Assembly: GCA_016209985.1 (NCBI GenBank)
Contig: JACQVB010000041.1
Coordinates: 1 to 36,172, forward strand
Source of the DNA: Gemmatimonadota bacterium
Lineage (GTDB): Bacteria; Gemmatimonadota; Gemmatimonadetes; Gemmatimonadales; GWC2-71-9
Length of the DNA: 36,172 nt
Reading direction: 5' to 3'
The position numbers were made by a program, and so were the translations under genes. Below are positions 16,403-34,133 of this stretch, one piece after another (within the stretch, counting starts at the first letter, position 1; each line of letters begins with the position of its first letter). The notes below the pieces were generated by a model that saw only the letters and a list, made by a program, of their open reading frames with translations, did no database searches and was not told the origin of the DNA.

Positions 16403-17056
16403 ATGATGAGCTCCGAACAAGACGTGGCCCATTTCTTCGATGATTTTTCCAAGACGTTTGACACGTTTTACGAGAACCAGCGAGGAGCATTGCTGCGCTG
16501 GGTAGATCACCGTTTTCGCAGTGACATGTACATACGCTTTGCCCGGACGTTCGAGGCCTTCGGGGACCTGCGAAATCGCACCGTGGTGGATATCGGATGC
16601 GGCTCGGGCATCTATACGCTGGAAGCGCTGCGCCGAGGCGCCACGCAGGTGACCGCCATTGATCCCGCGCCCGGCATGCTGGCGTTGGTCCGGGAGAGAG
16701 TCGAGCGAGAAGGATTCGCGGCTGGGACCGAGATCAGGGAAGGTTTTTTCCCCATGAAAGTACCGCCCCATGACTTCGCCATAGTCATGGGGGTGATGGA
16801 CTACATCGCCGATCCGCTCAAGTTTCTCGAGGGGCTGCGATCGGTCGTGACAGATTGCGCGGCGGTCTCGTTTTCCAGCCGCCACTGGTTCCGGACGCCC
16901 TTCCGCAAAGTGCGCTACCGGATCCGAAACTGTCCGGTCTTTTTCTACACCGAGGACTCCATCCGGGCGATGTCCCAGTCGGCGGGATTCTCCCATATCC
17001 AGATTTACAAGATTTCAGGGGCCGGCATGGATTATCATGTTTGCCTGAAGCCATGA
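16403..17056 (+). CDS. Class I SAM-dependent methyltransferase
   Basis: The 217-residue protein has the SAM-binding motif V-V-D-I-G-C-G-S-G-I-Y near residue 60, the acidic A-I-D-P-A-P-G-M of motif II, and a post-core segment G-V-M-D-Y-I-A-D-P. No signal or membrane segment is seen. GAGAGGG sits directly before two tandem ATGs (16403 and 16406), and the true start may be the second. The stop overlaps the deacetylase start (ATGA). It probably O- or N-methylates a sugar of the surface polymer; the acceptor cannot be read from sequence. Moderately low G+C like both neighbours. Confidence 0.8.
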   Translation: MMSSEQDVAHFFDDFSKTFDTFYENQRGALLRWVDHRFRSDMYIRFARTFEAFGDLRNRTVVDIGCGSGIYTLEALRRGATQVTAIDPAPGMLALVRERVEREGFAAGTEIREGFFPMKVPPHDFAIVMGVMDYIADPLKFLEGLRSVVTDCAAVSFSSRHWFRTPFRKVRYRIRNCPVFFYTEDSIRAMSQSAGFSHIQIYKISGAGMDYHVCLKP

Positions 17057-17949
17057 GTTGCGGCCGTCCGGTCATCACGGTCGATGTAGAGGATTGGCCC
17101 CAGTCGACCTGGGACCGGAACTTGCCGGTCACGGCCAGGGCGGCCGAGAACATGATACGGCTCATGGGAATTCTGAATGAAGCAGGCGTCAAGGTGACGC
17201 TCTTCGTTCTGGGTAAATTTGCCGAATGTTTTCCCGATGTGGTGAGAGCGCTCAGCGAGCAGGGTCATGAAATCGCCAGCCATGGGTATGGGCATGTGGA
17301 GATTTTTCGGCAGTCCCGAGAGGAGTTTCGCGAAGACGTAGTACGGTCGAAGGAAATACTGGAAGAAATCACCGGCGTCCCGGTTCGGGGGTACCGAGCT
17401 CCCGATTTTTCAATCCTGCGGAATAGTCTTTGGGCTTTTGACGTACTGGCAGATTCAGGTTTCGAATTTGATTCCAGCGTCGTTCCCATCCGGCACCCGC
17501 GCTACGGTATCCCAGACTGGCCTCGTGAGCCGACCCGGGTACACCTGCCGGGACAGCGAAGTATTCTGGAATTCCCCTTGGCTACGTATCGTGTTTTCGG
17601 GAAGAATTGGCCCATCGGAGGCGGAGGGTACTTTCGATTACTGCCAGGCGTGATTGCCCGCCGGTTGGCGCGCCGGTCGATGCTTTCAGTGCCGTTCGTC
17701 TTTTACTGCCATCCGTACGAATTCGATCCCTGGGAGTTCGGAGAAATCGGTCTGGAGATTCCTCTTCGCGTCCGGCTTCACCAGGGTCTGGGACGGGGGC
17801 GTTTCGAAGCCCGTTTCCGGCGATTCGTATCTGAATTTGGCGGAAGGCGGATGCTGGACTTGATCCAGCAGGCTGTCCAGTACACAGACCTCGAGTTGAA
17901 AGCCGTTGCGCCCGGCTCCGGGTTCGAGCTCATGTCGAGAGGTGTGTAA
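17053..17949 (+). CDS. Polysaccharide deacetylase (XrtA/PEP-CTERM-locus type)
   Basis: NodB-fold deacetylases remove N- or O-acetyl groups from polysaccharides. The 298-residue product starts with I-T-V-D-V-E-D-W (catalytic and metal aspartates), then L-F-V-L-G-K-F-A-E, the metal ligands in H-E-I-A-S-H-G-Y-G-H, and R-G-Y-R-A-P-D-F-S-I. The C-terminal half, with G-G-G-Y-F-R-L-L-P and F-Y-C-H-P-Y-E-F-D-P-W, matches the deacetylase subgroup found next to exosortase XrtA loci. No exosortase is in the window. The ATG at 17053 overlaps the methyltransferase stop as ATGA. There is no signal peptide, so it probably acts in the cytoplasm. One 60-base stretch (17401-17460) has only 28 G/C. Confidence 0.87.
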   Translation: MSCGRPVITVDVEDWPQSTWDRNLPVTARAAENMIRLMGILNEAGVKVTLFVLGKFAECFPDVVRALSEQGHEIASHGYGHVEIFRQSREEFREDVVRSKEILEEITGVPVRGYRAPDFSILRNSLWAFDVLADSGFEFDSSVVPIRHPRYGIPDWPREPTRVHLPGQRSILEFPLATYRVFGKNWPIGGGGYFRLLPGVIARRLARRSMLSVPFVFYCHPYEFDPWEFGEIGLEIPLRVRLHQGLGRGRFEARFRRFVSEFGGRRMLDLIQQAVQYTDLELKAVAPGSGFELMSRGV

Positions 17950-18062
17950 GCGAGTTTCGGCCGGCGTCGGCTGGTCTAGCGCTCCGTGCAAGTGGTCCTT
18001 CCCGCTCCTTACGGCTCGACGCGCCCCTGGTTCAGTCTCGTCCTGCGGAAGCACAAGACTAG

Positions 18063-18088
18063 TTACATCACACACTTACGCTTATATT
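18063..18088 (+). promoter_or_regulatory. Possible promoter before the aminotransferase gene
   Basis: In an otherwise G+C-rich gap of 181 bases, an A/T-rich block carries TTACAT (18063-18068) and TATATT (18083-18088). The spacer is 14 bases, shorter than the ideal 17, so this is only suggestive. The rest of the gap 17950-18062 shows nothing recognisable. Confidence 0.3.
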
Positions 18089-18113
18089 GCCGCCGGCGAA
18101 AGCGGCTCTTTTT
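18089..18113 (+). terminator. Hairpin plus T tract just before a ribosome-binding site
   Basis: GCCGC and GCGGC form a 5-bp stem around an 8-base loop and are followed by TCTTTTT. The T tract abuts GGAGGG (18114-18119), the ribosome site of the aminotransferase. It could end the 16.4-17.9 kb transcript or attenuate entry into the next genes. The stem is short. Confidence 0.4.
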
Positions 18114-18130
18114 GGAGGGATGGCACCGAG

Positions 18131-19342
18131 GTGGGCAGAACCAGTTTCCTTCCGTTTGCTCGGCCGGACATCAGCGAGGCGGAAATCGAGGCGGTGGTTG
18201 CGGTCCTGCGGTCGGGATGGCTCACGACCGGGCCCGAGACGAAGGCGTTCGAGCAGGAATTCGCCCGCTATATCGGTGTGGAACATGCGGTTGCACTCAA
18301 TTCCTGTACCGCGGCGCTGCATCTCGCCCTCGAAGCATTCGGCGTGGGGCCGGGGGACGAAGTCCTGACCAGCACGATGACCTTCACTGCCACCGCCGAA
18401 GTGGTCGAGTATCTGGGAGCCAGAACCCGGTTCGTGGACGTCGATCGAGACACCTTGAACCTGTCGGCCGAGCGGCTTGGCGAGCTGGTCAGCAGGGAGT
18501 ACGTGCGCCGGAATGGCGAGTGGCGGCACCGGGAGTCCGGGGGCCGACTGCGGGGGCTGGTGCCGGTGCATTTTGGTGGTCATCCCTGCGATCTCGGCGC
18601 CCTGCTCGATTTTGCCAGGGAGCATGAGCTGGTGGTGGTGGATGACGCCGCGCACGCGCTGCCGGCATCGATCGAGGGCCGGCGCGTCGGCGCGTGGGAC
18701 TGCGCGTCGGCGTTCAGTTTCTACGCGACCAAGACGATGACGACCGGTGAAGGCGGAATGTTCTGCACCAACGACGAAGGGCTCGCGTCCCGCGTGCGCA
18801 TGATGGGACTGCACGGGATCTCGCGCGATGCGTGGAAGCGGTATGCGGCTGATGGGAGCTGGCATTACGAGGTGGTGGAGGCAGGGTACAAGTACAATCT
18901 GACCGACATTGCTGCGGCGCTCGGTCGGGTGCAACTCCGGCGGCTGGAGTCCATGCTGGAGCGGCGGGAGGCAGTGGCGGGCGGGTACGACGTGGGCTTC
19001 CGGCTCATTCCGGAGGTCGAAACGCCCCAGGCGCAACCCGGCGTAAAGCCGGCCTGGCATTTGTATCCGATTCGGCTGCGCTTGGAGCAACTGCAGATCG
19101 ATCGAAGACAGTTCATCGCCGAGTTGCACCGGCGGGGCATCGGGACGAGCGTTCATTTCATACCGCTCCACTCGCAACCATTTTACGCGAAACGGTATGG
19201 ATACGATCCCGGCGATTTTCCGGTGGCAGAAGCCGAATACCCACGGCTGGTCTCTCTCCCGATCTACTCTGGAATGACCGAGGCGGACGTCGATTCGGTA
19301 ATCGGAGTAGTCGGCGAAGTCGTGGAGTGCTTCCGAGCTTAG
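18131..19342 (+). CDS. DegT/DnrJ/EryC1-family sugar aminotransferase
   Basis: PLP enzymes of this family transfer an amino group from glutamate to a keto-sugar nucleotide. The 403-residue product shows F-A-R-P-D-I-S-E-A-E-I, L-N-S-C-T-A-A-L-H-L-A-L (phosphate-binding), D-D-A-A-H-A-L (PLP aspartate), the Schiff-base lysine in F-Y-A-T-K-T-M-T-T-G-E-G-G, and Y-N-L-T-D-I-A-A-A-L-G. The closest functional types are the PglE/PseC/perosamine synthetases. The GTG at 18131 is 11 bases after GGAGGG; the frame continues upstream without a better start. It probably acts on the 4-keto product of the dehydratase at 12008. Confidence 0.92.
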   Translation: MGRTSFLPFARPDISEAEIEAVVAVLRSGWLTTGPETKAFEQEFARYIGVEHAVALNSCTAALHLALEAFGVGPGDEVLTSTMTFTATAEVVEYLGARTRFVDVDRDTLNLSAERLGELVSREYVRRNGEWRHRESGGRLRGLVPVHFGGHPCDLGALLDFAREHELVVVDDAAHALPASIEGRRVGAWDCASAFSFYATKTMTTGEGGMFCTNDEGLASRVRMMGLHGISRDAWKRYAADGSWHYEVVEAGYKYNLTDIAAALGRVQLRRLESMLERREAVAGGYDVGFRLIPEVETPQAQPGVKPAWHLYPIRLRLEQLQIDRRQFIAELHRRGIGTSVHFIPLHSQPFYAKRYGYDPGDFPVAEAEYPRLVSLPIYSGMTEADVDSVIGVVGEVVECFRA

Positions 19343-19354
19343 TCCCTCGGCACG

Positions 19355-21421
19355 ATGCGCGTAGCGATTGTCGGATGTGGGCGTGTGGCGGAATACCACG
19401 CCAGATTCATCGCCGCGACTCCAGGCGCGGAATTGGTGGCTGTGGCCGATGCGCGCCTGGACAATGCCCGCCGACTCGCGAAGCAATACGCCGACGTTGC
19501 GGTGTACCAGTCGCTCACCGACCTGCTCTCGGGAACCGCCATCGATGTCCTTCACGTCACGACTCCGCCGGCGGGACATGCATCGCAGGCGCTGGCAGCG
19601 ATCGCCCGGGGGGCTCATGTCTTGGTGGAAAAGCCCGTGGCTCTGGCCCCCGCGGATGCAGAACAGATCTACCGCTGCGCGGCCGAGAAGGGTGTGTCGA
19701 TCTGTCCCAACTTCATTCAGCTGTTCCACCCCCGCATGCGCGAGGCGGACGCGATGATCGCGTCCGGGCGGTTGGGGTCCATCAGGCACTGCGAGTGCTA
19801 CCTGGGCGTAGACCTGAACATGCGGGAGCTGACCGAGGCGCGACGGTTGCACTGGAGCTATGAATTGCCGGGCGGCGTGCTCCAGAACTACATCACCCAC
19901 CCGCTCTATCTGGTGCAGCGCTGGATTGGGGAAGCCCGCCAGGTCCACGTCGCGGCGCGCAGTTTCGGCAACTTGCCACAGGGGCTGACGGACCATCTGG
20001 ACGTGCTGATTGAAGGCGAGGGTGGGACAGCCAGCCTGACCCTCTCGTTTGCGACGCGTCCCGCTCCCTACTACGTCAAAGTGTACGGGGAAAACGGCAC
20101 GGTTACCGTCGATTTCGATGCTCTTTCGGTCATGGTGGACGGCCCGAGCGCGCTCCCACGTTCCGTCGACCGGGCCACGGTGAATCTGCGGCGGGGAGTG
20201 CGCCTTTCCCGGTGGGCCTTTCGCAATGTGCGAGAGCACCTGCTGGGCCGGCTGGTCCCCTATCACGGCCTCGGCGTGCTGATTCCGAAATTCTACGACG
20301 GCATCCAGACCGGGAAGCCGGCCCCGGTACCGCCCGAGCTTGCATTGGCAGTGTCCCGGTCGGAGCACCAAGTCCTCTCCCGCGCGGGCAAGGTGCGGCT
20401 CGATCTTACCGCACGGCCCTCGCGCCAGGCTACCGTCCGCAGAGCCGAGCGGGTTCTGGTAACCGGGGCCACAGGATTTGTGGGACGGGAAGTGGTCCGC
20501 CAGCTGGTGGACCAGGGATACTACGTGCGGGCTTTGTCCCGCCCGCTGGGGCACATCGAGGCGCTGGAGGGCGCCGGTGTCGAGATCGTCTTCGGCGACC
20601 TCCGGGACAAGCCGACGATAGCCCGCGCAGTCGAGGGGATGGATGTGGTGGTGCACGTCGGCGCCGCTGTGAGGGGAAGCGACTCATTCATGCGTGCCAG
20701 CGCCGTCGGGGGGACCGCCAACCTGGCGGAAGCGGCTGCTCGGAACGGAGTCAAGAGAGTGATCTACATGAGCTCGCTCTCGGTGTACGACTACCTCAGG
20801 ATGCGCAACGGTGAGTTGGTATCGGCGACTTCGCCCTTGGAAGAGCGTCCCGCGGACCGGGGTGGCTACTCGGCGGCGAAACGGGAGGCCGAAGACGTGG
20901 CGACGAGCGCGCTCGGGCAGGCGTTACCCGCGTGGACCATCCTGCGTCCCTCGGTGATTTTCGGTCCGGACCGTGATCCGGTCAGCGCCGCCGGGCCCAG
21001 GATCGGGCGGTGGCTGCTCTCGTTTGGCGGTTCCCGTCACCGGTTGCGGCTGGTGCACGTCGCCGATGTGGCGCGGGCCGTGGTTCTCGCGATTCAGCAG
21101 CCGGTCTCGGCCGGAAAGGTCTACACGGTCTCGCACCCGGACACGATCCGGATCAAGGAATTCGTCCAGCACCTGGGGTCCCGGGTCGACTCGCGGCCAC
21201 TGCGCGTGGTGTACCTCCCCTATTGGGTGGCGGCGTGCGGAGTGCTGGCGCTGTGGGTACTGGGACGGTTGCGAAACCGCCCCGTCGGTTGGAATCGCCG
21301 GCGCCTGGCCTATTTGTTTCGCGATGTCCGGGTCGACTCGAGCGCGATCGCGGGCGATCTGGGCTGGCGCCCGGCGGCCGACTTGCGATCGCAGCTCATC
21401 GACTGCGTGGATCGGAAGTGA
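19355..21421 (+). CDS. Fusion: Gfo/Idh/MocA oxidoreductase plus extended-SDR epimerase/dehydratase
   Basis: Two nucleotide-sugar-type enzymes are joined in one 688-residue frame. Residues 1 to ~345 are a Gfo/Idh/MocA dehydrogenase: Rossmann start V-A-I-V-G-C-G-R-V-A, the family E-K-P-V-A-L (92-97) with its lysine, and a C-terminal alpha/beta domain. Residues ~366-688 are an extended SDR: T-G-A-T-G-F-V-G (370-377), M-S-S-L-S-V-Y, Y505-S-A-A-K509, R-P-S-V-I-F-G-P. A short hydrophobic stretch follows near 625-645 (V-A-A-C-G-V-L-A-L-W-V-L-G). A ~20-residue Arg-rich linker joins them. No stop or frameshift separates the parts. The stop overlaps the GT4 gene as GTGA. Likely two successive redox steps on one sugar; substrate unknown. 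Confidence 0.88.
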   Translation: MRVAIVGCGRVAEYHARFIAATPGAELVAVADARLDNARRLAKQYADVAVYQSLTDLLSGTAIDVLHVTTPPAGHASQALAAIARGAHVLVEKPVALAPADAEQIYRCAAEKGVSICPNFIQLFHPRMREADAMIASGRLGSIRHCECYLGVDLNMRELTEARRLHWSYELPGGVLQNYITHPLYLVQRWIGEARQVHVAARSFGNLPQGLTDHLDVLIEGEGGTASLTLSFATRPAPYYVKVYGENGTVTVDFDALSVMVDGPSALPRSVDRATVNLRRGVRLSRWAFRNVREHLLGRLVPYHGLGVLIPKFYDGIQTGKPAPVPPELALAVSRSEHQVLSRAGKVRLDLTARPSRQATVRRAERVLVTGATGFVGREVVRQLVDQGYYVRALSRPLGHIEALEGAGVEIVFGDLRDKPTIARAVEGMDVVVHVGAAVRGSDSFMRASAVGGTANLAEAAARNGVKRVIYMSSLSVYDYLRMRNGELVSATSPLEERPADRGGYSAAKREAEDVATSALGQALPAWTILRPSVIFGPDRDPVSAAGPRIGRWLLSFGGSRHRLRLVHVADVARAVVLAIQQPVSAGKVYTVSHPDTIRIKEFVQHLGSRVDSRPLRVVYLPYWVAACGVLALWVLGRLRNRPVGWNRRRLAYLFRDVRVDSSAIAGDLGWRPAADLRSQLIDCVDRK

Positions 21422-22551
21422 CCACCGCTCGCCGCCGGCGGGTGCTCCTGGTGGGACCGGTCCCTCCGCCGATGGACGGACGAGCCCGCTATCTGCAGGA
21501 TCTGACCAGCTCGGCTCTTGCCGAACGGCACGATCTCGTGCTGCTCGCCGACAACGTTCCGGAGCACTTGCGGCCGCGGGTCAACACGGAGCGATTCACC
21601 TGGAACGTCCTGCGCCGGGACGGCGTGATGTCGAGCGCGTCGGTGCTGGCGTTCGTCGCCCGCAAGATGGTCGAGCTTCGGCGACGGTTGGTACGCGACG
21701 GGGTCGAGATCGTGCATCTGATGTCCACTACCGGGTATGGTTTTTTTCGGAATACGGTTCACAGCCTGATCGCCAAGCGGAGCGGGGCGCGCACCGTATC
21801 GCACCTCCTGGGACAGTTTGACGACTTTTATCGTGACGCGGGCCCCTGGATGAAACGACTGATCCGCTGGTCGCTGGACAAGGCCGACGTACACATTGTC
21901 CAGTCACCGGGACTGGCCGACGTGCTCCGGACCATGACCGGTCGACCGATCTACTCGATCGTCAACGGAGTGCGCATCGAGGACTTCCGACCGCCCGAGG
22001 GATTTGCCCACAGCGACGGCCAGGCGGTCCGGGTACTGACCGTGGGATACCTCGGCCATCGCAAGGGGACCTTCGACCTGCTGGAGGTGGCGGAGCGGCT
22101 GAGCGCCACGCGCCCGAAGGTTCGCCTGACGGTTGTGGGGGGCGGTGAAGTCGACCGGTTCCGCGGGCTGGCGGAGCAGCGGAAGCTGCGGAATATCGAA
22201 TTCATCGGAGCGGTGGACGAGATGCGGAAGGTCGCGCTTCTCCATGGCGCCGACATCTTCCTGCTGCCCAGCCGTGCGGAGGGCCAGCCCATCGCGTTGC
22301 TGGAGGCCATCGCGGCCGGGCTACCGGTCGTTTCCACGACGGTGGGGTCGATCCCCGAGGTAGTCGGCTCCGCCAACGGGTTGCTGACGAGCCCGGGGGA
22401 TGTGGAGGGGATGGTGAGCGTGCTCGAACGGCTGGTGGACGATCCGTCACTGCGCGAGCGCATGGGACGTTTCAACCGGCAGGACGCGGTGCGCCGCTTT
22501 GACCTGCGCCGCGTGTTCGACGAGATCGACGCCGTGTATCAGGCGATCTGA
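21418..22551 (+). CDS. Family 4 glycosyltransferase
   Basis: The 377-residue GT-B enzyme starts with V-L-L-V-G-P-V-P-P-P-M-D-G, followed by G-Q-F-D-D-F and V-N-G-V-R-I-E-D-F at the domain junction. The nucleotide-sugar-binding half has V-G-Y-L-G-H-R-K-G and the E-x7-E motif in A-E-G-Q-P-I-A-L-L-E-A. The GTG start overlaps the fusion gene stop (GTGA), so it is coupled. The frame is open much further upstream, but that part lies inside the fusion gene and is a shadow. It probably transfers a hexose in assembly of the repeat unit; neither donor nor acceptor can be assigned. Confidence 0.9.
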   Translation: MTTARRRRVLLVGPVPPPMDGRARYLQDLTSSALAERHDLVLLADNVPEHLRPRVNTERFTWNVLRRDGVMSSASVLAFVARKMVELRRRLVRDGVEIVHLMSTTGYGFFRNTVHSLIAKRSGARTVSHLLGQFDDFYRDAGPWMKRLIRWSLDKADVHIVQSPGLADVLRTMTGRPIYSIVNGVRIEDFRPPEGFAHSDGQAVRVLTVGYLGHRKGTFDLLEVAERLSATRPKVRLTVVGGGEVDRFRGLAEQRKLRNIEFIGAVDEMRKVALLHGADIFLLPSRAEGQPIALLEAIAAGLPVVSTTVGSIPEVVGSANGLLTSPGDVEGMVSVLERLVDDPSLRERMGRFNRQDAVRRFDLRRVFDEIDAVYQAI

Positions 22552-22553
22552 CC

Positions 22554-23906
22554 ATGTGGATCTACGCGGGCATCGTGCTCGTAAATCTGGCGCTCATGCT
22601 CGGCATCGTGCGGTGGCGGGGATTCACGTCGTACGAGGGCCTGGGCATGCTGCTGCTGGCAGCGGTAGTGGTCAGCGACTGGCTGGTGCTGCTGATCGCA
22701 ATAGTCCTGGCCCCCGATTCTCCGGAGATCGCGGCGATGGTCCAGGGCCGGATATGGCCCGGCGTCGTCCATCTGGCCGGGCTCACTGCGTTCGCGGCCG
22801 GATTGTTCGTCATCTCACCGACCCCGGCGCGGGTGGGCCGGCAACTCTCGCCCAGGGACGTACGGGTCGTGCGGGATGCGGGCACCGCGCTCCTGGCCGG
22901 CGGGGTCGCCATGAAGCTCCTCGCGTTGTGGGCCCAGGGGATTACCAGCATCGGCGACTACTTCGCGAACCTGTACGCCTACACGGCCGCTCCGAAGCGT
23001 TTCGGGACCTTTCTGGACTGGGGCACCAGTTTGGCCTTCTTCGGCGCGGCGCTTCTGGCTGCCTCGTACGAAGGGCGCAAGCTCCGCCAGATAGGCTTTT
23101 TGGGCCTGTCGATGGCGGTGGCGTTCTTCCTGACCGGCTCGCGGGCCGGCGTGGTGGGGTCGATCTTCTCTTTCTTCGTGGTAGTGGCGGCACTGAATCC
23201 CCGTTCCTTCCGCACCTGGCTGCGGCCCGGGTTTCTCGCCTTGTTGGCCGTGACCGCAATCGTCACCGCGGGCATCAAGACGCAGATTCGATTCGCGAGC
23301 GCGACATCGGTCTTGAAGACGGACGTATCCACAGTCACCGTGGTGGCGCTTTCCGCCTTCGAATCCCGCTTCGGAGATGCCGGGGTGTTCTCGGGTTACG
23401 CTAACATGGTGAGCCGCCAGACGGCGGATCCCTCGCAGCTCATGCGGGGGAAGGTGCTCTACTACACCCTCATCGCGTGGGTCCCTCACGTCGTCTTCCC
23501 CGGCAAACCGGCTCACCCGTTCCGGGACATCGGCGTCCTGATCCGGAACAATTTTTCCAGCCGCGAGGATACGATCTACGCGCCGATGCTGGTGGGCTAC
23601 GGCTTTGCGGATTTCGGCCTGCCGAGCGCGGTGCTGTACCTCTTTTTCGGGGCGTTCGCGCTGGGGCTGTTGCGCCGGTTGGGGGCCGGACCCGACGTGT
23701 CCATCCTGCTGCTCATCGGCTACCTTCACGTGACGCTGATCGAGGGGGCGTCCAATCTCATTCATAACGGATTTCTGACGCTGGTGGCCGGCGTCGTACT
23801 GGCTGCAGGTGCGATGACCCTGGTCATCCTGTATGTGGCCGCCCGCGACCTGCTTCGGGCGATCATGGCTCGACCCGCAACCATTCCGAACCCGGTGAAC
23901 CGATGA
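22554..23906 (+). CDS. Wzy-like oligosaccharide repeat-unit polymerase
   Basis: The 450-residue integral membrane protein has about 11 hydrophobic segments and a large hydrophilic loop at residues ~240-330. That layout is typical of O-antigen/capsule polymerases, which share little sequence. Supporting points are F-L-T-G-S-R-A-G-V-V-G (a common Wzy motif), the loop with F-P-G-K-P, and D-T-I-Y-A-P-M-L-V-G-Y-G-F-A-D-F-G resembling the second conserved region. It starts 2 bases after the GT4 stop and overlaps the following methyltransferase as ATGA. An O-antigen ligase is the main alternative, since the two are hard to separate by sequence. Confidence 0.7.
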   Translation: MWIYAGIVLVNLALMLGIVRWRGFTSYEGLGMLLLAAVVVSDWLVLLIAIVLAPDSPEIAAMVQGRIWPGVVHLAGLTAFAAGLFVISPTPARVGRQLSPRDVRVVRDAGTALLAGGVAMKLLALWAQGITSIGDYFANLYAYTAAPKRFGTFLDWGTSLAFFGAALLAASYEGRKLRQIGFLGLSMAVAFFLTGSRAGVVGSIFSFFVVVAALNPRSFRTWLRPGFLALLAVTAIVTAGIKTQIRFASATSVLKTDVSTVTVVALSAFESRFGDAGVFSGYANMVSRQTADPSQLMRGKVLYYTLIAWVPHVVFPGKPAHPFRDIGVLIRNNFSSREDTIYAPMLVGYGFADFGLPSAVLYLFFGAFALGLLRRLGAGPDVSILLLIGYLHVTLIEGASNLIHNGFLTLVAGVVLAAGAMTLVILYVAARDLLRAIMARPATIPNPVNR

Positions 23907-24652
23907 GCGCCAAGGCCGCACGGGTGGGAGAAACCGCGAACGCATTTTCGGCGGAGGAGGACCGCATCCGCGCGGCCTATGCCCGGCGAGTCGTCGATGG
24001 GCGTTATTCCTGGTTCGATGCGGGCAACCTGCTCGCCATGCACGAGCGCGAGCGATCGGCCTTGCGGGTGCTCGCGGCAGCCGGGCTCACCCCGCTGGCG
24101 GAGCGCCGTATTCTCGAAGTCGGGTGCGGCACCGGCGCCTGGCTGCGGGACTTCGTCAAATGGGGCGCGGATCCCAAACGGCTCTACGGGGTGGACTTGC
24201 TTTCCGAGCGGGTCGAACAAGCCCGGCGGCTCTGTCCCGCCGGGGTCACTCTGGAATGCCGGAACGCGGCGCAGCTCGGTTTCGAGGACGCCTCATTCGA
24301 TCTCCTGCTCCAGTCAACCGTGTTCACTTCCATTCTCGATCGCGCGCTGCGCCGCGCCGTCGCGGCGGAGATGGTGCGGGTGCTGCGGCCGGGCGGGGTG
24401 ATTCTCTGGTATGACTACCACGTGAACAACCCACGCAACCCCGACGTCCGCGGCGTGCCGCGGCGGGAGATTGCGGAACTCTTCCCCGGGTGCTCGGTAC
24501 ACCTGAGGCCCGTCACTCTCGCTCCGCCGCTAGCGCGCATGCTGGCGCCCCGCGCGTGGCTGCTTTGCCAGCTGCTGGAGCGCGTTCCCGGACTCCGCAC
24601 TCACTATTTGGGGCTGATTCGGAAGCCGGCGCCGGGAGCGACCGGCCGGTGA
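23903..24652 (+). CDS. Class I SAM-dependent methyltransferase
   Basis: The 249-residue cytoplasmic enzyme has the SAM motif I-L-E-V-G-C-G-T-G-A-W near residue 70, acidic motif V-D-L-L in Y-G-V-D-L-L-S-E-R, and R-V-L-R-P-G-G-V-I-L-W-Y-D-Y of the ubiE/Methyltransf_11 type. The N-terminus (R-I-R-A-A-Y-A-R-R) resembles methyltransferases found in lipopolysaccharide and capsule clusters. It is coupled at both ends: its ATG overlaps the polymerase stop and its TGA overlaps the GTG of the sugar transferase. It may cap or decorate the polymer, but the acceptor is unknown. Confidence 0.83.
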   Translation: MSAKAARVGETANAFSAEEDRIRAAYARRVVDGRYSWFDAGNLLAMHERERSALRVLAAAGLTPLAERRILEVGCGTGAWLRDFVKWGADPKRLYGVDLLSERVEQARRLCPAGVTLECRNAAQLGFEDASFDLLLQSTVFTSILDRALRRAVAAEMVRVLRPGGVILWYDYHVNNPRNPDVRGVPRREIAELFPGCSVHLRPVTLAPPLARMLAPRAWLLCQLLERVPGLRTHYLGLIRKPAPGATGR

Positions 24653-25323
24653 CGGCTCCCCAGGCGGACGCTTTGCCGGCGCGTGCAGATGTTCCGTACG
24701 ACGTGATCAAGCGGGCGCTGGATCTGCTCCTTTCCCTTGCCGGGCTGGTGGTGCTTGCCCCCTCGCTCGCGGCAATCGCCATTCTGATCAAGCTGGATTC
24801 CCGGGGACCCGTGCTGTTTCGACAGGAGCGAGTGGGGCGGCGCTTCCGGCGCTTTCGGATTTACAAGTTTCGCACCATGGTAGCGGGCGCGGATCGGCTC
24901 GGGGCCGCGCTCACCGGAGAGCGCGATCCACGGGTGACGCGCGTGGGGCGGCGGTTGAGGCATTTCAAGCTCGATGAACTGCCCCAGCTCTTCAATGTGG
25001 TCGCCGGCGACATGAGCCTGGTGGGGCCACGTCCCGAGGTGCCACGCTATGTCGAACACTTCCGAGGCGACTATGAGGAGATCCTGACGGTCCGGCCGGG
25101 AATGACCGATCTGGCCAGCCTGAAGTACCGGAACGAGTCGGCCACGCTGGCTGGCGGACCCGACGTCGAAGCCCGCTACCTCGCCACGATCCTGCCCGAC
25201 AAGATCCGGCTGGGCAAGGAATACCTTCGCCGTTCCGGCCTGGGATTCGACTTGCAGCTGGTACTTTTTACGATGCTGGCGCTGGTCGGCTTCGATCCAC
25301 CGGAGAAATGGGGAACGTCATGA
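24649..25323 (+). CDS. Initiating sugar-1-phosphate (phosphoglycosyl) transferase, PglC-like
   Basis: This enzyme starts each repeat unit by moving a sugar phosphate from a UDP-sugar to undecaprenyl phosphate. The 224-residue protein is the minimal catalytic form: one re-entrant hydrophobic helix at ~24-46 after K-R-A-L-D-L-L-L-S, then G-P-V-L-F-R-Q-E-R-V-G, Y-K-F-R-T-M, and the signature D-E-L-P-Q-L-F-N-V-V-x-G-D-M-S-L-V-G-P-R-P-E. It lacks the extra N-terminal membrane and CoA-binding domains of WbaP/WcaJ. The GTG at 24649 is coupled to the previous stop. With the CapD-like dehydratase and DegT aminotransferase, a bacillosamine-like first sugar is plausible. Confidence 0.93.
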   Translation: MTAPQADALPARADVPYDVIKRALDLLLSLAGLVVLAPSLAAIAILIKLDSRGPVLFRQERVGRRFRRFRIYKFRTMVAGADRLGAALTGERDPRVTRVGRRLRHFKLDELPQLFNVVAGDMSLVGPRPEVPRYVEHFRGDYEEILTVRPGMTDLASLKYRNESATLAGGPDVEARYLATILPDKIRLGKEYLRRSGLGFDLQLVLFTMLALVGFDPPEKWGTS

Positions 25324-25353
25324 TCCTGTCTCGCGCATGCGGGGCGCCTTTCG

Positions 25354-26466
25354 ATGGGTGAGCCGGTCCGCTGGGCGCCGAGCGCCGCGGACGGGTCTTT
25401 TTCGGAGGCCGACCGCCAGCCACTCCTGATCGTCAACGCCGTGCTGCGCCGCTGGCGGGTCGCTCTGGGCGTGCCGGTGCTCGGGGTGCTGCTCGCGATG
25501 GTGATCGCATTGATGTGGCCGCGCGGGTACGTGGCCACCGCGCAGTTCCTTCCGCAGGTCACGGGAGACCAGTCGCGGCTGGCCGGCTTGGCGGCTCAGT
25601 TCGGCATCAACATCGGAGGGAGCGCCAGCCCCGAGTCGCCGGACTTTTACGCCCAACTCATCCAGTCGCGCGAGCTGACCGAGGCGGTGGTGCGGAGCAC
25701 GTATCGACTGCACCGGGGCGATTCGACGGTTTATCGGGAAGGCAGGCTCCCCGAGCTGGTGGCGTCCGGAGGGGAGACGCCCCTGGCGCGTCTCCGTCGG
25801 GGCATGAGGTGGCTGCGCAAGCACCGGGCGGTGGGGGTGAGTCTCAAGACCGGAGTCATCGCGGTGCAGGTGACCGCGCCGCAGCCGGAACTGGCGGAGC
25901 AGATCAACGGCCGGATTCTGGAGCTGGTCAACGAGTACAACCTGAACCGGCGGCAAACGCGCGCCTCCGCCGAACGTGAGTTCGTCGAAGGCCGGTTGCG
26001 AGACATGCACGACAGCCTGCTCGCCACCGAAGCCGCCTACCAGCGGTTTCTGGAGCGCAACAAGCGCTACCAGCAGTCGCCCGAGCTGATGCTGCAGGCC
26101 GCCAATCTTCGCGCGGCGCTGGATCTGCGACGGCAGGTGTACAACTCGCTGGCGCAGTCCCTGGAGCAGGCGCGGATCGACCAGGTGCGCAACACGCCGG
26201 TGATCAGCGTGATCGACCGCCCGGAAGGGTCGGCGGTGCGCGCCCCGAGCCAACTGCTCCTCGCGGTGTTTCTGGGCGGGATGTTCGGGCTGGCGATCGC
26301 GCTGGCCTGGGTTTTTGGCGGGGAGTATATTGACCGGCAACGTTTGCGGCATCCCGAGACGTACGCCGATTTTGTCGTCCTGGGTTCGGCGCTGGTCGGC
26401 CGCCTGCTGCCCGCCCGCTTGGCCGGGCGGCGTACGGGTGGCGGTTCCAGCGCCTCATCGTCGTGA
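25354..26466 (+). CDS. Wzz-like chain-length determinant (polysaccharide co-polymerase)
   Basis: This inner-membrane protein sets chain length together with the polymerase. The 370 residues contain a first membrane helix at ~37-53 (A-L-G-V-P-V-L-G-V-L-L-A-M-V-I-A-L), a long periplasmic helical domain (~55-300) with coiled-coil-prone stretches, a Pro-rich P-E-G-S-A-V-R-A-P motif before a second membrane helix at ~306-325, and a short basic cytoplasmic tail. No Walker motifs or tyrosine cluster follow, so this is a kinase-free form. It starts 30 bases after the sugar transferase gene. The stop overlaps an alternative GTG of the NeuB gene. Confidence 0.87.
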   Translation: MGEPVRWAPSAADGSFSEADRQPLLIVNAVLRRWRVALGVPVLGVLLAMVIALMWPRGYVATAQFLPQVTGDQSRLAGLAAQFGINIGGSASPESPDFYAQLIQSRELTEAVVRSTYRLHRGDSTVYREGRLPELVASGGETPLARLRRGMRWLRKHRAVGVSLKTGVIAVQVTAPQPELAEQINGRILELVNEYNLNRRQTRASAEREFVEGRLRDMHDSLLATEAAYQRFLERNKRYQQSPELMLQAANLRAALDLRRQVYNSLAQSLEQARIDQVRNTPVISVIDRPEGSAVRAPSQLLLAVFLGGMFGLAIALAWVFGGEYIDRQRLRHPETYADFVVLGSALVGRLLPARLAGRRTGGGSSASSS

Positions 26467-26495
26467 GCTGGATTCCCCATGATAACGGGAGCGTC

Positions 26496-27551
26496 ATGAC
26501 CCGATCTCTCACGATCGGCAAGGTGACTATTTCCGACGAGAGCGACTGCTACATCATCGCCGAGATCGGTCACAACCATCAGGGCAGCATCGACAAAGCC
26601 AAGTCCCTGTTCCAGACCGCGAAGGACTGCGGAGCCGACGCGGTCAAGCTCCAGAAACGGGACAATCGCGCGCTGTACACCCGCGCGATGTACGAGAAGC
26701 CCTACGATAACGAGAACAGCTTCGGGCCCACCTACGGTGCGCATCGGGAAGCGCTCGAGTTCGGCACGGCGGAATATGGGGAGCTGCAGCAGTTCGCCTC
26801 GCAGCTAGGCCTGGCCTTCTTCGCCACCGCGTTCGACATTCCCAGCGCCGATTTTCTCCAGCGGCTCGACGTGCCCGCCTACAAGATCGCCTCGGGCGAC
26901 CTCCGCAATCTCCCGCTGCTCCGGCACGTGGCCCGGTTCCAGCAGCCAGTGCTCCTCAGCACCGGCGGCGGCACGCTGGACGACGTGCGGCGGGCCCACG
27001 ACCTGATCATGTCGCTCAACCCCCGGCTCTGCCTGCTGCAATGCACCGCTACCTACCCGACCGAACCACCGGAACTGAACTTGCGGGTGATCTCGACCTT
27101 TCGTGAGACTTTCCCCGAAGCGTGTATCGGACTGTCGGACCATTACAATGGCATCGCCATGTCCGTGGCGGCGTACGTCCTGGGCGCCCGGCTCATCGAA
27201 AAGCATTTCACGCTGAACCACACCTGGAAAGGAACTGATCACGCCCTGTCCCTGGAGCCGGTGGGCTTCAAGAAGATGGTGCGAGACCTGCGCCGGATCC
27301 GGGAAGCCTTGGGGGACGGCGTCAAGCGAGTGTATCCCAGCGAGGAAGGCGCGCTCGTCAAGATGGGCAAGACCCTGGTGGCGGGCTGCGACCTCCCGGC
27401 GGGCCATACCCTGGGCCTGTCGGACATCGCCATCAAGTCGCCCGGCGGCGGCTTGCCTCCCACCGAAATCGACCGGATCCTGGGCCGGCGCCTGCGCACC
27501 GCGCTCCGGGCGGACGAACAGATCCAGCTCGCGCACCTGGATGGCGCGTAA
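26496..27551 (+). CDS. NeuB-type N-acetylneuraminate/ulosonate synthase
   Basis: The enzyme condenses phosphoenolpyruvate with a six-carbon aldose (or its 6-phosphate) to a nonulosonic acid. The 351 residues show I-I-A-E-I-G-H-N-H-Q-G near residue 16, K-L-Q-K-R-D-N, F-G-P-T-Y-G-A-H-R-E-A-L-E-F, K-I-A-S-G-D, L-L-Q-C-T-A-T-Y-P-T, G-L-S-D-H-Y, and E-K-H-F-T. A C-terminal SAF (antifreeze-like) domain starts at ~290 with A-G-H-T-L. The start is ATG 26496, supported by GGGAG; a GTG at 26463 would add 11 residues. The adjacent phosphatase suggests a 9-phosphate product, as in Kdn/Neu5Ac-9-P routes. No NeuC-type epimerase is present. Confidence 0.93.
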   Translation: MTRSLTIGKVTISDESDCYIIAEIGHNHQGSIDKAKSLFQTAKDCGADAVKLQKRDNRALYTRAMYEKPYDNENSFGPTYGAHREALEFGTAEYGELQQFASQLGLAFFATAFDIPSADFLQRLDVPAYKIASGDLRNLPLLRHVARFQQPVLLSTGGGTLDDVRRAHDLIMSLNPRLCLLQCTATYPTEPPELNLRVISTFRETFPEACIGLSDHYNGIAMSVAAYVLGARLIEKHFTLNHTWKGTDHALSLEPVGFKKMVRDLRRIREALGDGVKRVYPSEEGALVKMGKTLVAGCDLPAGHTLGLSDIAIKSPGGGLPPTEIDRILGRRLRTALRADEQIQLAHLDGA

Positions 27552-28116
27552 CGGCTCCCGCGGCCCGCGGGGCCGGTCCGCGAGCCTCCACGAGCTGATG
27601 CGCTCTATACGCCTCGTGGTGTTCGACTTCGACGGCGTCTTCACCGACAACACCGTGTGGGTGTCACAGGACGGCAACGAGTGGGTACGCTGCTGGCGCG
27701 GGGACGGGCTGGGGCTCCGGCTGCTGGAAGGACTGGGGATCGACCTGCTGATCCTCTCGACCGAAGTCAACCCTGTCGTACTCGCCCGGAGCCGCAAGCT
27801 CAAGGTGACCTGCATCCAATATCCCGACGGCGACAAGTTGGAGGCCTTGCACCGGGCGCTGGCCGAACGTGGCCTCCGGCTGGACCAGGTCGCCTATGTC
27901 GGCAACGACATCAACGATGCGTCGTGCCTCGCGGCGGTGGGGCTCCCCATCGTGGTCGGTGACGCCCATCCCGCGGTCCGCAAACTGGGCCGGATCCGGA
28001 CCCGGCAGCGGGGAGGTCGGGGGGCGGTCCGGGAAGTGTGCGACACGTTCGTGGAAATTCTGGGGACGAGCCGGGCCGTGGCGGGGCGGTCGCGAAGGCG
28101 CGGTGGCCGGGCGTGA
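27541..28116 (+). CDS. KdsC-type HAD phosphatase for a ulosonate phosphate
   Basis: The 191-residue cap-less HAD enzyme resembles KdsC and the Kdn-9-phosphate phosphatases. Motif I is V-F-D-F-D-G-V-F-T-D-N (nucleophile D29, D31), motif II I-L-S-T-E (73-75), motif III lysine in G-D-K-L (K99), and motif IV G-N-D-I-N-D (D123). It overlaps the synthase gene by 11 bases. An internal ATG at 27598 is an alternative start giving 172 residues, closer to KdsC length. A basic R-R-R-G-G-R tail follows. It probably removes the phosphate from the NeuB product before CMP activation, but this is inferred from gene order. Confidence 0.88.
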   Translation: MARNGSRGPRGRSASLHELMRSIRLVVFDFDGVFTDNTVWVSQDGNEWVRCWRGDGLGLRLLEGLGIDLLILSTEVNPVVLARSRKLKVTCIQYPDGDKLEALHRALAERGLRLDQVAYVGNDINDASCLAAVGLPIVVGDAHPAVRKLGRIRTRQRGGRGAVREVCDTFVEILGTSRAVAGRSRRRGGRA

Positions 28117-28922
28117 GCGATCCTCTGTTCGACATCGGCGGGCGGGTCATTGTAGTCACGGGCGCCGCGGGATTGCTGGGACGCCGGTTTGTCCGCGCGC
28201 TGCTGGATCGCGGCGCCCGGGTCGCGGCACTCGATCTCGCGGAGAGACCGGCGGCCGACGCCCTCCCGCAGGGTTTCGGTGAGCGTCTCAGGTATTGGCG
28301 TGCGGACGTGCTCCGGCACACGGAGCTGGAGCGCGTGGCCGAGGACTTGAGCTCGACCTGGGGCGTTCCCCATGGCCTCATCAACTGCGCCGCCATCGAT
28401 TCGCCGCCCGACGCCCCCGCGGCGGAGAACGGGCCGTTCGAGCGCTACCCCGAGGAATCGTGGGACAAGGTGATGGATGTCAATGTGAAGGGCGTCTTCC
28501 TGTGCTGCCAGGTGTTCGGCGCGCGCATGGCTGCCGCGGGACGCGGATCGATCGTCAATATTTCGTCTATTTACGGACTGGTATCGCCCGACCAGCGGAT
28601 CTACGAGTATCGGCGAAAAGCGGGCAGTGAGTTTGTGAAACCGGTGGCCTACTCCGCGTCCAAATCGGCGCTCCTGAACCTCACGCGCTATCTGGCCACC
28701 TACTGGGCCCCCAAAGGCGTGCGGGTCAACACCCTGACACTGGCCGGCGTAGTCAACGCCCAAGACCCGGCGTTTCTCGAGGGATATACCGCCCGCATTC
28801 CCGTCGGCCGGATGGCGAGTCCGGAGGAGTACGACGGCGCGATGGTCTTCCTCTGCGCCGATGCATCGAGGTACATGACCGGTGCTAACCTGGTAATCGA
28901 CGGCGGCTGGACCGCATGGTGA
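28113..28922 (+). CDS. SDR-family oxidoreductase of the ulosonic-acid module
   Basis: The 269-residue classical SDR has T-G-A-A-G-L-L-G near residue 14 (a slightly altered glycine motif), N-C-A-A-I-D in place of NNAG, N-I-S-S-I-Y-G with the catalytic serine, and Y-S-A-S-K-S-A for Tyr/Lys. The C-terminus M-T-G-A-N-L-V-I-D-G-G-W-T is normal. The extra I-Y-E-Y-R-R-K-A-G-S segment before the active tyrosine resembles SDRs found in sialic or legionaminic acid clusters, such as PtmA. GTG overlaps the phosphatase stop; the 3' end overlaps the aldehyde dehydrogenase. It may oxidise or reduce the synthase precursor or product. Confidence 0.87.
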   Translation: MSDPLFDIGGRVIVVTGAAGLLGRRFVRALLDRGARVAALDLAERPAADALPQGFGERLRYWRADVLRHTELERVAEDLSSTWGVPHGLINCAAIDSPPDAPAAENGPFERYPEESWDKVMDVNVKGVFLCCQVFGARMAAAGRGSIVNISSIYGLVSPDQRIYEYRRKAGSEFVKPVAYSASKSALLNLTRYLATYWAPKGVRVNTLTLAGVVNAQDPAFLEGYTARIPVGRMASPEEYDGAMVFLCADASRYMTGANLVIDGGWTAW

Positions 28923-30394
28923 TGCCCGGCCCGGTTTTCCCGGCTGAAATCGGCAACTGGATCGAAGGCCGCGAGGTGCCGGCGGTGGCCGGGCAGTGGT
29001 TTTCCAAGCTCAACCCCCACGACGGAAGCGAGATCTGCCGCGCCGCGCGGTCGCAGGCGGACGATGTGCAGCGGGCGGTGGATGCGGCCCGGTGCGCGTA
29101 CGTCGCCTGGTCGCGTCTCCCGGGGGTGCGCCGGGGGGAGCTGCTCACCGCGGTGGTTGACGCCATGGCGGCTCGCCGGGCGGACCTGGCGCAGGTCGTG
29201 GCATTGGAGACCGGGAAGTCGCCCTCGGCCGCGCTGGGCGAAGCCGACGCCGCGATCGCGCTGGGCCGGTTCATGGCTGGCGAGGGCCAACGGATGTACG
29301 GCCGGACTACGACCAGCGGGGCGCCCAATCGCCAAACCTCCACCGTGCGCCAGCCGCTGGGCGTGGCGGGCCTCATCATCGCGGCCAACACGCCCATCGC
29401 CAACGTGGCGTGGAAAGTGTTCCCCGCGCTCATCTGCGGGAACGCGGCGGTGCTCAAGACCGCGGAGGACACGCCGATTACCGCGTGGCTCTTCGCCCAG
29501 ATTGCACACCAGGCCGGGTTGCCCGGGGGGTTGCTCAATGTGGTGCAGGGACTGGGCCGCGAAGCCGGGGCGCCGCTGGTGGCGAATCCCCAGGTAGCGG
29601 TAGTGAGCTTCACCGGCTCGACCGCCGTGGGCCGCGAGATTGCGTCGGTGGCGGGCGCCCGGCTCGCCAGGGTGTCACTGGAGCTGGGCGGCAAAAATCC
29701 CTTCGTGGTATGTGACGACGCCGATCTGGAGCACGCGGTGAAGTGGGCGCTGCTCTCGGCGTTCAGCAACGCCGGGCAGCGGTGCGCGGCCGGCAGCCGC
29801 CTGATCGTGTTCGAAGCGGTCTACCAGCGCTTCCGTGACTTGTTTGTCGCCGGCGCGAAGCAGCTCCGGGTGGGGCCGGCGGACGGCGACGACTTCGGTC
29901 CGGTGATCAATCAGCGGCAGCTCGAGCGCATACTCCGGGTGCTCGAGCGCGCGCAGGCGGAAGGAGCGGTGGTGCTCACCGGAGGCCAGCGCCTGATGGA
30001 TCCGGCGCATCGAAACGGCTTTTATCTGGCTCCCACCGTGATCGAAGGCGCGGCGGCAGAGGCGGAGGTCTCCGGCACCGAGCTGTTCGGCCCGGTGGCC
30101 TCGCTCTATCGCGCGAGCGATTTTGAAAGCGCGCTGGCACTGGCGAACCGTTCGCCGTACGGGCTCACTGCCTGCATTCATACCGCGAGCGTCCATCGGG
30201 CCATGGGGTTTGTGCAGCGGGTCGAGGCCGGGGTCGCGGTGGTGAACGCGGGCACGTACGGAAGCGAACCGCACATGCCCTTCGGTGGCGTCAAGGCATC
30301 GGGCAACGGGTCGCGGGAGCCCGGGACCGAAGCGCTCGACGTCTACAGCTCGCTCAAGAACGTGGTCGTCTGTACCGACCCCGCGCGGCTGTGA
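28916..30394 (+). CDS. NAD(P)-dependent aldehyde dehydrogenase
   Basis: The 492-residue protein is a complete ALDH-superfamily enzyme that oxidises an aldehyde to an acid. It has the general base in L-E-L-G-G-K-N-P-F (E256), the catalytic cysteine in G-Q-R-C-A-A-G-S (C290), the cofactor motif F-T-G-S-T-A-V-G, and E-L-F-G-P-V near the C-terminus. The ATG at 28916 (or 28922, in TGATG) overlaps the SDR gene. An aldehyde dehydrogenase is not a standard part of sialic-acid-type clusters. It could make a uronic or aldonic acid, supply or remove an aldehyde for the transketolase, or protect against aldehyde by-products; the sequence does not decide. Confidence 0.92.
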   Translation: MVMPGPVFPAEIGNWIEGREVPAVAGQWFSKLNPHDGSEICRAARSQADDVQRAVDAARCAYVAWSRLPGVRRGELLTAVVDAMAARRADLAQVVALETGKSPSAALGEADAAIALGRFMAGEGQRMYGRTTTSGAPNRQTSTVRQPLGVAGLIIAANTPIANVAWKVFPALICGNAAVLKTAEDTPITAWLFAQIAHQAGLPGGLLNVVQGLGREAGAPLVANPQVAVVSFTGSTAVGREIASVAGARLARVSLELGGKNPFVVCDDADLEHAVKWALLSAFSNAGQRCAAGSRLIVFEAVYQRFRDLFVAGAKQLRVGPADGDDFGPVINQRQLERILRVLERAQAEGAVVLTGGQRLMDPAHRNGFYLAPTVIEGAAAEAEVSGTELFGPVASLYRASDFESALALANRSPYGLTACIHTASVHRAMGFVQRVEAGVAVVNAGTYGSEPHMPFGGVKASGNGSREPGTEALDVYSSLKNVVVCTDPARL

Positions 30395-30419
30395 CCCGTC
30401 ATACCGATTGGAGCTGGCC

Positions 30420-31178
30420 GTGCCGCCAGGCGCACCCAGCGTCGTAGCGCTGGTGCCGGCGCGATCCGGCTCCAAACGCGTTCCCGGGAAGAACATCCGG
30501 CGCCTGGCCGGCCATCCGCTGCTGGCCTATACGGTCGCAGCCGCTCGCGCCAGCGGCGTCTTCTCCGCCATCGTCACCTCCACCGACAGCGCGGAATACG
30601 CCGAGATGTTCCGGCACTACGGCGGCGAGGCCCCGTTTCTCCGCCCGGCGGCCTTCTCGGGTGACCTCTCGCCCGATATCGAATGGGTGGAACACGCGCT
30701 GGCCACCCTGGCCGGGGCGGGACGCGTCTTCGACTGCTTCAGTATCCTGCGCCCGACCAACCCGTTCCGTCAGGCTCACACCATCCGGCGCGCGTGGGAG
30801 CTCTTTCAGAAGGAAGAAGGCGTGGATTCGCTGCGGGCGGTCGAGAAATGCAAACAGCACCCCGGCAAAATGTGGATGGTGCGGGGGAGACGGATGATGC
30901 CGCTACTGCCCCTAGGTCCGGCGGACCGCCCCTGGCACAGCAGCCAGTACCAGGCCTTGCCCGAGGTCTACGTACAGAATGCCAGTCTGGAGATCGCGTG
31001 GACCAGGGTGGTGCGGGAGAGCCGCACCATCGCCGGGGTAGTGATGGTCCCGTTTTTCACTGAAGGTCTCGAGGGTGTGGACATCAACGATCCGCGTGAC
31101 TGGGATTGGGCGGAACGCCTGGTGGCCGAGCAACCGGCGGCCCTGCCGCGCGTGGAGCAGAAGCCCTTCCCCGACTGA
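30420..31178 (+). CDS. NeuA-like CMP-ulosonate cytidylyltransferase
   Basis: The enzyme activates a keto-acid sugar with CTP. The 252-residue product starts with V-A-L-V-P-A-R-S-G-S-K-R-V-P-G-K-N, the nucleotide-binding signature of CMP-sialic acid, CMP-pseudaminic and CMP-Kdn synthetases. It continues with T-S-T-D-S-A-E-Y-A, L-R-P-T-N-P-F-R, and ends with V-D-I-N-D-P-R-D-W, a conserved metal-binding region. GTG 30420 is preceded by GGAG six bases away; upstream frame-open sequence lies in the ALDH gene. No C-terminal esterase domain, as in short bacterial forms. Which ulosonic acid it uses depends on the unusual neighbours. Confidence 0.9.
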   Translation: MPPGAPSVVALVPARSGSKRVPGKNIRRLAGHPLLAYTVAAARASGVFSAIVTSTDSAEYAEMFRHYGGEAPFLRPAAFSGDLSPDIEWVEHALATLAGAGRVFDCFSILRPTNPFRQAHTIRRAWELFQKEEGVDSLRAVEKCKQHPGKMWMVRGRRMMPLLPLGPADRPWHSSQYQALPEVYVQNASLEIAWTRVVRESRTIAGVVMVPFFTEGLEGVDINDPRDWDWAERLVAEQPAALPRVEQKPFPD

Positions 31179-31191
31179 TGGAGATTTCCTG

Positions 31192-33159: not shown

Positions 33160-34118
33160 CGTCCGCCGGTCTGTCCGGTTCGTCCGTTCTCGTTACCGGG
33201 GGAGCGGGTTTCATCGGTACCCGGCTGGTCCATTTGCTGCTCGAGGAGGGCGCGCAGGTAACAGTGATCGACGACTTTTCTTCTCCCTCGTCCTCGCCTC
33301 CGCCCGCCGCCGCAACGGTTCACCGTCTGCATCTGCCGAATCCGGCCCTGGCCGAGATCGTTGCCGACGGGCGATTCGCGATGGTTTTTCATCTGGCCGG
33401 AGCGGCGTACGTCCCGCCATCGATCGACGACCCGGTCATCGACCTGAGCAGCAATGCCGAGGTGACGCTGTCGGTCCTGGAAGCGGTTCGCCACGCGGCC
33501 CCGCGGGCCCGGCTGATCTTCACATCGTCGGCCGCGGTCTACGGCTCGCCAGAGATCCTGCCCATTGGGGAAGACACGCCCATCGCTCCGGTGTCGCCCT
33601 ATGGGGTGAGCAAGTTCGCCGCCGAACAGTACGTGTCGCTCTATGCGCGGTTGCATGGGCTCCACACCGCGGCCCTGCGCCTTTTTTCGGTGTACGGGCC
33701 CGGGCAGCGAAAGCAGGTCATCTACGATCTTGTCGCCAAAATGCGCGCCAATTCGCGGGTGTTGCCGGTCCATGGAACCGGTGACGAGACCCGGGATTTT
33801 GTCTACGTGGACGATGTGGCGCATGCGGCGATCCTGGTAGCGACGTGCGCTCCCCTGGCAGGGGAGGTCTACAACGTGGCGTCCGGGACCAGCGTGAGCA
33901 TTCGGCACCTGGTGGAGGTGACGGCGGAGGCGTTGGGTCTTGCCCCGGAGATTCGCTTTACCGGGGAGGTGCGGCCGGGCGATGCGCTACGGTGGGAGGC
34001 GGACAACAGCCGACTGAGAGCCCTGGGTTTCGCGCCGGAGGTGGAGTTGAGGGAAGGCGTGAAGCGAACTGCGGCTTGGTTCCACAGCTCGACCTCGCCC
34101 CACGCGTCCGTTGCCTGA
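33156..34118 (+). CDS. NAD-dependent nucleotide-sugar epimerase/dehydratase
   Basis: This 320-residue extended SDR resembles UDP-glucose 4-epimerases and related enzymes. It has V-T-G-G-A-G-F-I-G at the N-terminus, F-H-L-A-G, S-S-A-A-V-Y-G, the Tyr/Lys pair in S-P-Y-G-V-S-K, R-L-F-S-V-Y-G-P-G-Q, and G-D-E-T-R-D-F-V-Y-V-D-D-V. It starts as ATGA over the transketolase stop. It could supply the aldose for the NeuB synthase or another sugar of the repeat unit; the specificity (4-epimerase, decarboxylase or dehydratase) cannot be told. Confidence 0.88.
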   Translation: MTSAGLSGSSVLVTGGAGFIGTRLVHLLLEEGAQVTVIDDFSSPSSSPPPAAATVHRLHLPNPALAEIVADGRFAMVFHLAGAAYVPPSIDDPVIDLSSNAEVTLSVLEAVRHAAPRARLIFTSSAAVYGSPEILPIGEDTPIAPVSPYGVSKFAAEQYVSLYARLHGLHTAALRLFSVYGPGQRKQVIYDLVAKMRANSRVLPVHGTGDETRDFVYVDDVAHAAILVATCAPLAGEVYNVASGTSVSIRHLVEVTAEALGLAPEIRFTGEVRPGDALRWEADNSRLRALGFAPEVELREGVKRTAAWFHSSTSPHASVA

Positions 34119-34133
34119 CCCGGCGGGCTGGCC

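Follow-up and report, generated by a model that had tools for sequence, protein, structure and literature searches.

The gene at positions 19355-21421 (+) of the window, that is, of the whole 36,172-nucleotide stretch of Gemmatimonadota DNA analyzed here, encodes a fused Gfo/Idh/MocA and extended SDR oxidoreductase of 688 aa, which is on balance probably a bifunctional oxidoreductase of surface-polysaccharide biosynthesis. By motif and family, two complete cofactor-binding catalytic domains are present in one chain, and bifunctional sugar processing is the likely role. The evidence counted in favor comprises the domains and motifs, relatives across phyla, a second fusion of the same kind, an unfused pair, neighboring glycosyltransferase, Wzy and flippase genes, the WlbA/GnnA and Gox2253 folds, an N-x3-H motif and a GTGA overlap with the next gene. 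Counted against it are the scores of both halves, far under the equivalog cut-offs, and the many unfused SDRs near the SDR half.

The gene is one open frame from an ATG at 19355 to a TGA at 21419-21421. Pfam searches identified GFO_IDH_MocA (PF01408) at residues 1-117 (E 3e-26; 92.8 bits, cut-off 24), GFO_IDH_MocA_C3 (PF22725) at residues 129-250 (E 1.5e-13; 51.2 bits, cut-off 27) and an Epimerase domain, likewise above its cut-off, at residues 367-591 (E 2e-31). The family matches extend from residue 1 to ~345 for Gfo/Idh/MocA and from 365 to ~675 for the extended SDR, with both domains in one chain and the Gfo domain first. The Gfo/Idh/MocA half (residues 1-345; 19355-20389, +) consists of the Rossmann domain and GFO_IDH_MocA_C3, as seen by Pfam and Foldseek, and is followed by an interdomain linker in open frame (residues 346-364; 20390-20446, +), which is of low confidence in both AlphaFold models, and by the extended SDR half (residues 365-688; 20447-21418, +), identified by the Pfam Epimerase match and by its match to Gox2253 (3wj7). 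The original prediction of a single uninterrupted frame across both halves was borne out: no stop codon occurs in the junction DNA between residues 345 and 365, and third-position GC remains high across the junction (0.79 in the first half and 0.82 in the second). The window comes from a draft assembly in 289 contigs, but that an assembly or sequencing artefact joined two genes has a negligible probability, as the coding signature runs unbroken across the junction and a like architecture is found in many unrelated records, complete plasmids included; it was rejected in view of the fused relatives and the coding signature. A long ORF on the opposite strand (18068-20656) was also discounted as a rival gene: its GC values by codon position (0.77, 0.47 and 0.70) lack the third-position maximum seen in the + strand gene, and it looks like a high-GC shadow frame.

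The cofactor and catalytic motifs were compared in an alignment of 27 fused proteins, in which K93, H182, Y505 and K509 are invariant. The Gfo half carries the NAD(P)-binding motif GCGRVA (residues 7-12; 19373-19390, +), of the GxGxxG/A type, whose G7 and G9 are kept in each of the 26 fused proteins that have a residue at these positions, and the EKP motif containing K93 (residues 92-94; 19628-19636, +), kept in 27/27. In the SDR half, the cofactor motif TGATGFVG (residues 370-377; 20462-20485, +) is of the TGxxGxxG type, with G371, G374 and G377 kept throughout (27/27), and the catalytic Y505-x3-K509 (20867-20881, +) is likewise present in all 27, as is a Ser or Thr at the position of S474, giving the Ser/Thr and YxxxK combination of an extended SDR. 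The EKP motif, Y505 and K509 lie exactly where they had been numbered. The claim that both halves keep their cofactor and catalytic motifs thus holds for the cofactor motifs, K93/H182 and Y505/K509, but the catalytic motif of the Gfo half, N178-x3-H182 (19886-19900, +), is not fully canonical: H182 of the Asp-x3-His pattern is invariant, while position 178, Asn in the window protein, is Asp or Glu in 26/26 fused relatives. This substitution could weaken the Gfo site, and together with the long branch on which the window protein falls it would favor a reading in which catalysis is confined to one half, with a regulatory or structural role for the other. We regard that reading as highly doubtful in view of the retained K93 and H182 and the intact cofactor motifs of both halves. 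In addition, alignment to the deposited sequences of WlbA (3q2i and 3q2k), using a probe peptide with a WlbA-like motif, placed an Asn at the same spacing before the His (N-x3-H) in both. Since the WlbA structures carry Asn there, N178 is not by itself an argument for lost activity.

Foldseek searches with the first AlphaFold model, in which the N half is mostly confident, returned WlbA (3q2k) and GnnA (7bvj) among the top matches for the Gfo half. These are nucleotide-sugar C3 dehydrogenases, acting as UDP-GlcNAcA 3-dehydrogenase and UDP-GlcNAc 3-dehydrogenase, respectively. WlbA (3q2k, 3q2i) is the best fold match of this half and shares with it the Asn four residues before the catalytic His, but shows ~20% identity and has no SDR half. 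Because the Foldseek score gaps to other family members are small, these matches give a lead to the substrate but do not establish it. By sequence and by fold, the nearest match of the SDR half is to Gox2253 (3wj7) and HpnA-type SDRs, and the alignment spans the hydrophobic C-terminal region; UDP-GlcNAc 4-epimerase is also a fold match. Gox2253 is a stand-alone protein, whereas the SDR half of the window protein is fused. ArnA is a bifunctional sugar-nucleotide enzyme in which one half is an extended SDR and the other a formyltransferase. It is among the fold matches listed for the SDR half and differs from the window protein in having this formyltransferase, and not a Gfo/Idh/MocA domain, as the partner. 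None of the PDB matches listed covers both halves. Against NCBIfam, each half scored far below every equivalog cut-off, including those of NF040723, the archaeal UDP-N-acetylglucosamine 3-dehydrogenase (78.5 bits, cut-off 450), and of the HpnA hopanoid-associated epimerase (125 bits, cut-off 367.65). The sequence and fold comparisons point to a sugar C3 oxidoreductase in the first half and, in the second, to a reductase or epimerase of the Gox2253/HpnA-like kind. The families and the WlbA/GnnA-type and Gox2253 fold matches make it reasonable to read the protein as a keto-sugar dehydrogenase joined to an SDR reductase or epimerase.

In the bifunctional oxidoreductase proposed here, the Gfo half would use K93 and H182 to oxidize or reduce a sugar at a ring carbon with NAD(P), the probable position being C3 of a nucleotide sugar. 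The SDR half would reduce or epimerize this keto sugar or the one that follows, through Y505 and K509. The covalent link would hold both steps close and in a fixed 1:1 ratio, and the product would be consumed by the coupled glycosyltransferase. A rival reading in which the protein is a net epimerase, the Gfo half making the keto sugar with NAD+ and the SDR half re-reducing it from the other face so that NADH is recycled within the protein, is consistent with the NAD(P)-binding motif in each half, the likeness of the SDR half to the reductase Gox2253 as well as to epimerases, and the 1:1 ratio fixed by fusion. We consider it unlikely: R396, at the end of the second strand of the SDR half and invariant in the fused set, may favor NADP over NAD, which would block simple recycling, and the AlphaFold models do not place the domains. 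The two models (from alignments A3 and A6) gave pTM values of 0.49 and 0.45, with a linker without confidence and no reliable domain orientation. It is distinctly unlikely as well that the protein by itself works as a two-site epimerase or deoxysugar synthase, with keto sugar and hydride carrier passing between the Gfo/Idh/MocA site and the SDR site on one chain; such a two-site catalytic pairing is absent from the open-access literature searched. A search of the same literature for papers on this fusion gave nothing relevant, the slashed family name not being directly matchable.

The fused gene is apparently part of an operon with polysaccharide genes. Upstream, the gene for a PseC-like DegT aminotransferase (17906-19342, +; 377.5 bits, cut-off 423.5) ends 12 nt before the fused gene starts, and the TGA of the fused gene shares a 4-nt overlap (GTGA) with the GTG start of a GT4 glycosyltransferase (21418-22551, +), which suggests translational coupling. 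The predicted closeness to glycosyltransferases is therefore real as gene order. The surrounding surface-polysaccharide cluster encodes a PseB/PglF-like dehydratase, a MurJ-like flippase, a GT2, methyltransferases, a polysaccharide deacetylase, an initiating sugar transferase, a Wzz-like protein, NeuB, a KdsC-type phosphatase, a cytidylyltransferase and a Wzx-like protein, as well as a candidate polymerase (22554-23906) with a weak, below cut-off match to TIGR04370. A C3 amination of the WlbA-WbpE type with the upstream DegT protein was considered and weakened, as the latter is PseC-like and the cluster holds the PseB/PglF-like 4,6-dehydratase; the C3 aminotransferase partner of WlbA is not evident at this locus. 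The adjacent aminotransferase, being PseC-like and of the C4 type, therefore gives no pointer to a C3-keto product.

Two further observations were made in the window. The run of genes at 24490-35648 includes, besides the initiating sugar transferase and Wzz-like genes, a NeuB/PseI-type synthase, a KdsC-type phosphatase, an SDR, an aldehyde dehydrogenase, a cytidylyltransferase, a full-length transketolase, an extended SDR and Wzx, and resembles a pathway to a CMP-activated ulosonic acid in which the transketolase and the ALDH are unusual. The polysaccharide deacetylase at 16855-17949 carries DUF3473, and like genes are found near the fused genes at three other loci (L102, L113 and L118).

A domain-architecture search, proposed as a check in the original prediction, showed that the pair recurs both in sampled genomes of the phylum and in plasmid records. 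With a profile built from ten fused proteins and a threshold of E <= 1e-80, matches were obtained in 21 of the 395 genomes sampled from the phylum of the window, nearly all across both halves. The only genome sampled from the same genus (G001) had no match at this threshold, and the nearest relatives are only 27-32% identical over the aligned stretch; the window copy is therefore divergent and patchily distributed. Glycosyltransferases are the usual neighbors of the fused genes, with Wzy or flippase genes also occurring; of 17 fused loci in the phylum, ten have glycosyltransferases nearby and two have O-antigen ligase-like proteins. In 15 plasmid records, from Alphaproteobacteria and one planctomycete, a single region took in 80% or more of the query, and those inspected were single annotated proteins, mostly adjoining glycosyltransferases; no DNA match was found in phage records. 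The unnamed plasmid proteins of Paracoccus, Shinella, Ruegeria and Aquisphaera, annotated as 'NAD-dependent epimerase/dehydratase family protein', resemble the window protein in domain order, length, catalytic residues and glycosyltransferase neighbors, but share only 24-27% identity with it overall (alignment A1), have an acidic residue in place of N178 and lack its hydrophobic stretch. In an Armatimonadetes locus (L047; 5448-7880), Gfo and SDR lie in the same reading frame with one TGA between them, an arrangement that may be two separate genes or a fusion that has split; its alignment row was translated through this TGA between the adjacent frames.

In the tree of the Gfo half, 25 of the 27 fused proteins, including the window protein, form one clade with support of 96/96, while those of Azospirillum and Skermanella fall elsewhere. 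Constraining all fused proteins to one clade was rejected (AU p = 0.0016), and the Azospirillum/Skermanella fusion is, as judged from this tree, a second, independent one; several long branches, that of the window protein included, are a caveat on the tree. Sister to this second fusion are adjacent but unfused Gfo and SDR genes in the same order, found at L115 and on another contig of the present genome (C159, 6261-8803, - strand), where the pair adjoins a GT4 gene and lies near an asparagine synthase gene. The SDR-half tree too groups this unfused pair with the second fusion, and the closest relatives of the window SDR half include many unfused SDRs. The unfused neighboring pair in the same genome, and a linker whose length in the aligned stretch varies between 25 and 47 residues and whose sequence is not conserved, would fit a fusion that serves co-expression only, the halves performing two independent pathway steps and not consecutive ones on one substrate. 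This is possible though improbable, since two separate fusions of like partners, always with Gfo first, suggest a closer functional link. The pairing recurs in two fusions and in neighboring genes, which suggests that both activities serve one pathway, and this recurrence is the best evidence for it.

The fusion of two cofactor-binding oxidoreductases, the core of the original prediction, was upheld by the Pfam domains, the conserved relatives and the second independent fusion of like partners, whereas its suggestion of membrane attachment fared poorly. A hydrophobic stretch, expected at residues 625-645, is present with a slightly earlier peak, at residues 618-636 (VVYLPYWVAACGVLALWVL; 21206-21262, +), with a Kyte-Doolittle mean of 1.98. 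The matching region of the plasmid-borne fused relatives has values of 0.1-1.0, while L010 and L014, from the window's own family, are hydrophobic there too (1.59 and 2.06). Membrane attachment was set aside as a weak reading because the hydropathy is not conserved among the fused relatives, many of which lack the helix, and because residues 618-636 align to the C-terminal region of the crystallized Gox2253. The stretch can be read equally well as an amphipathic or buried helix or as a membrane anchor, and the sequences leave room for an anchor in the subgroup of L010, L014 and the window protein.

The window protein is thus a divergent member of a recurrent and apparently uncharacterized architecture in polysaccharide clusters. 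Both partner families are common oxidoreductases, and the enzyme looks like an ordinary, sensible biosynthetic one. At least two fusions of the pairing, together with its occurrence in neighboring genes, suggest a shared step in the making of surface sugars. If its reaction were assigned, many genes of polysaccharide clusters now annotated 'NAD-dependent epimerase/dehydratase' could be given a real function.
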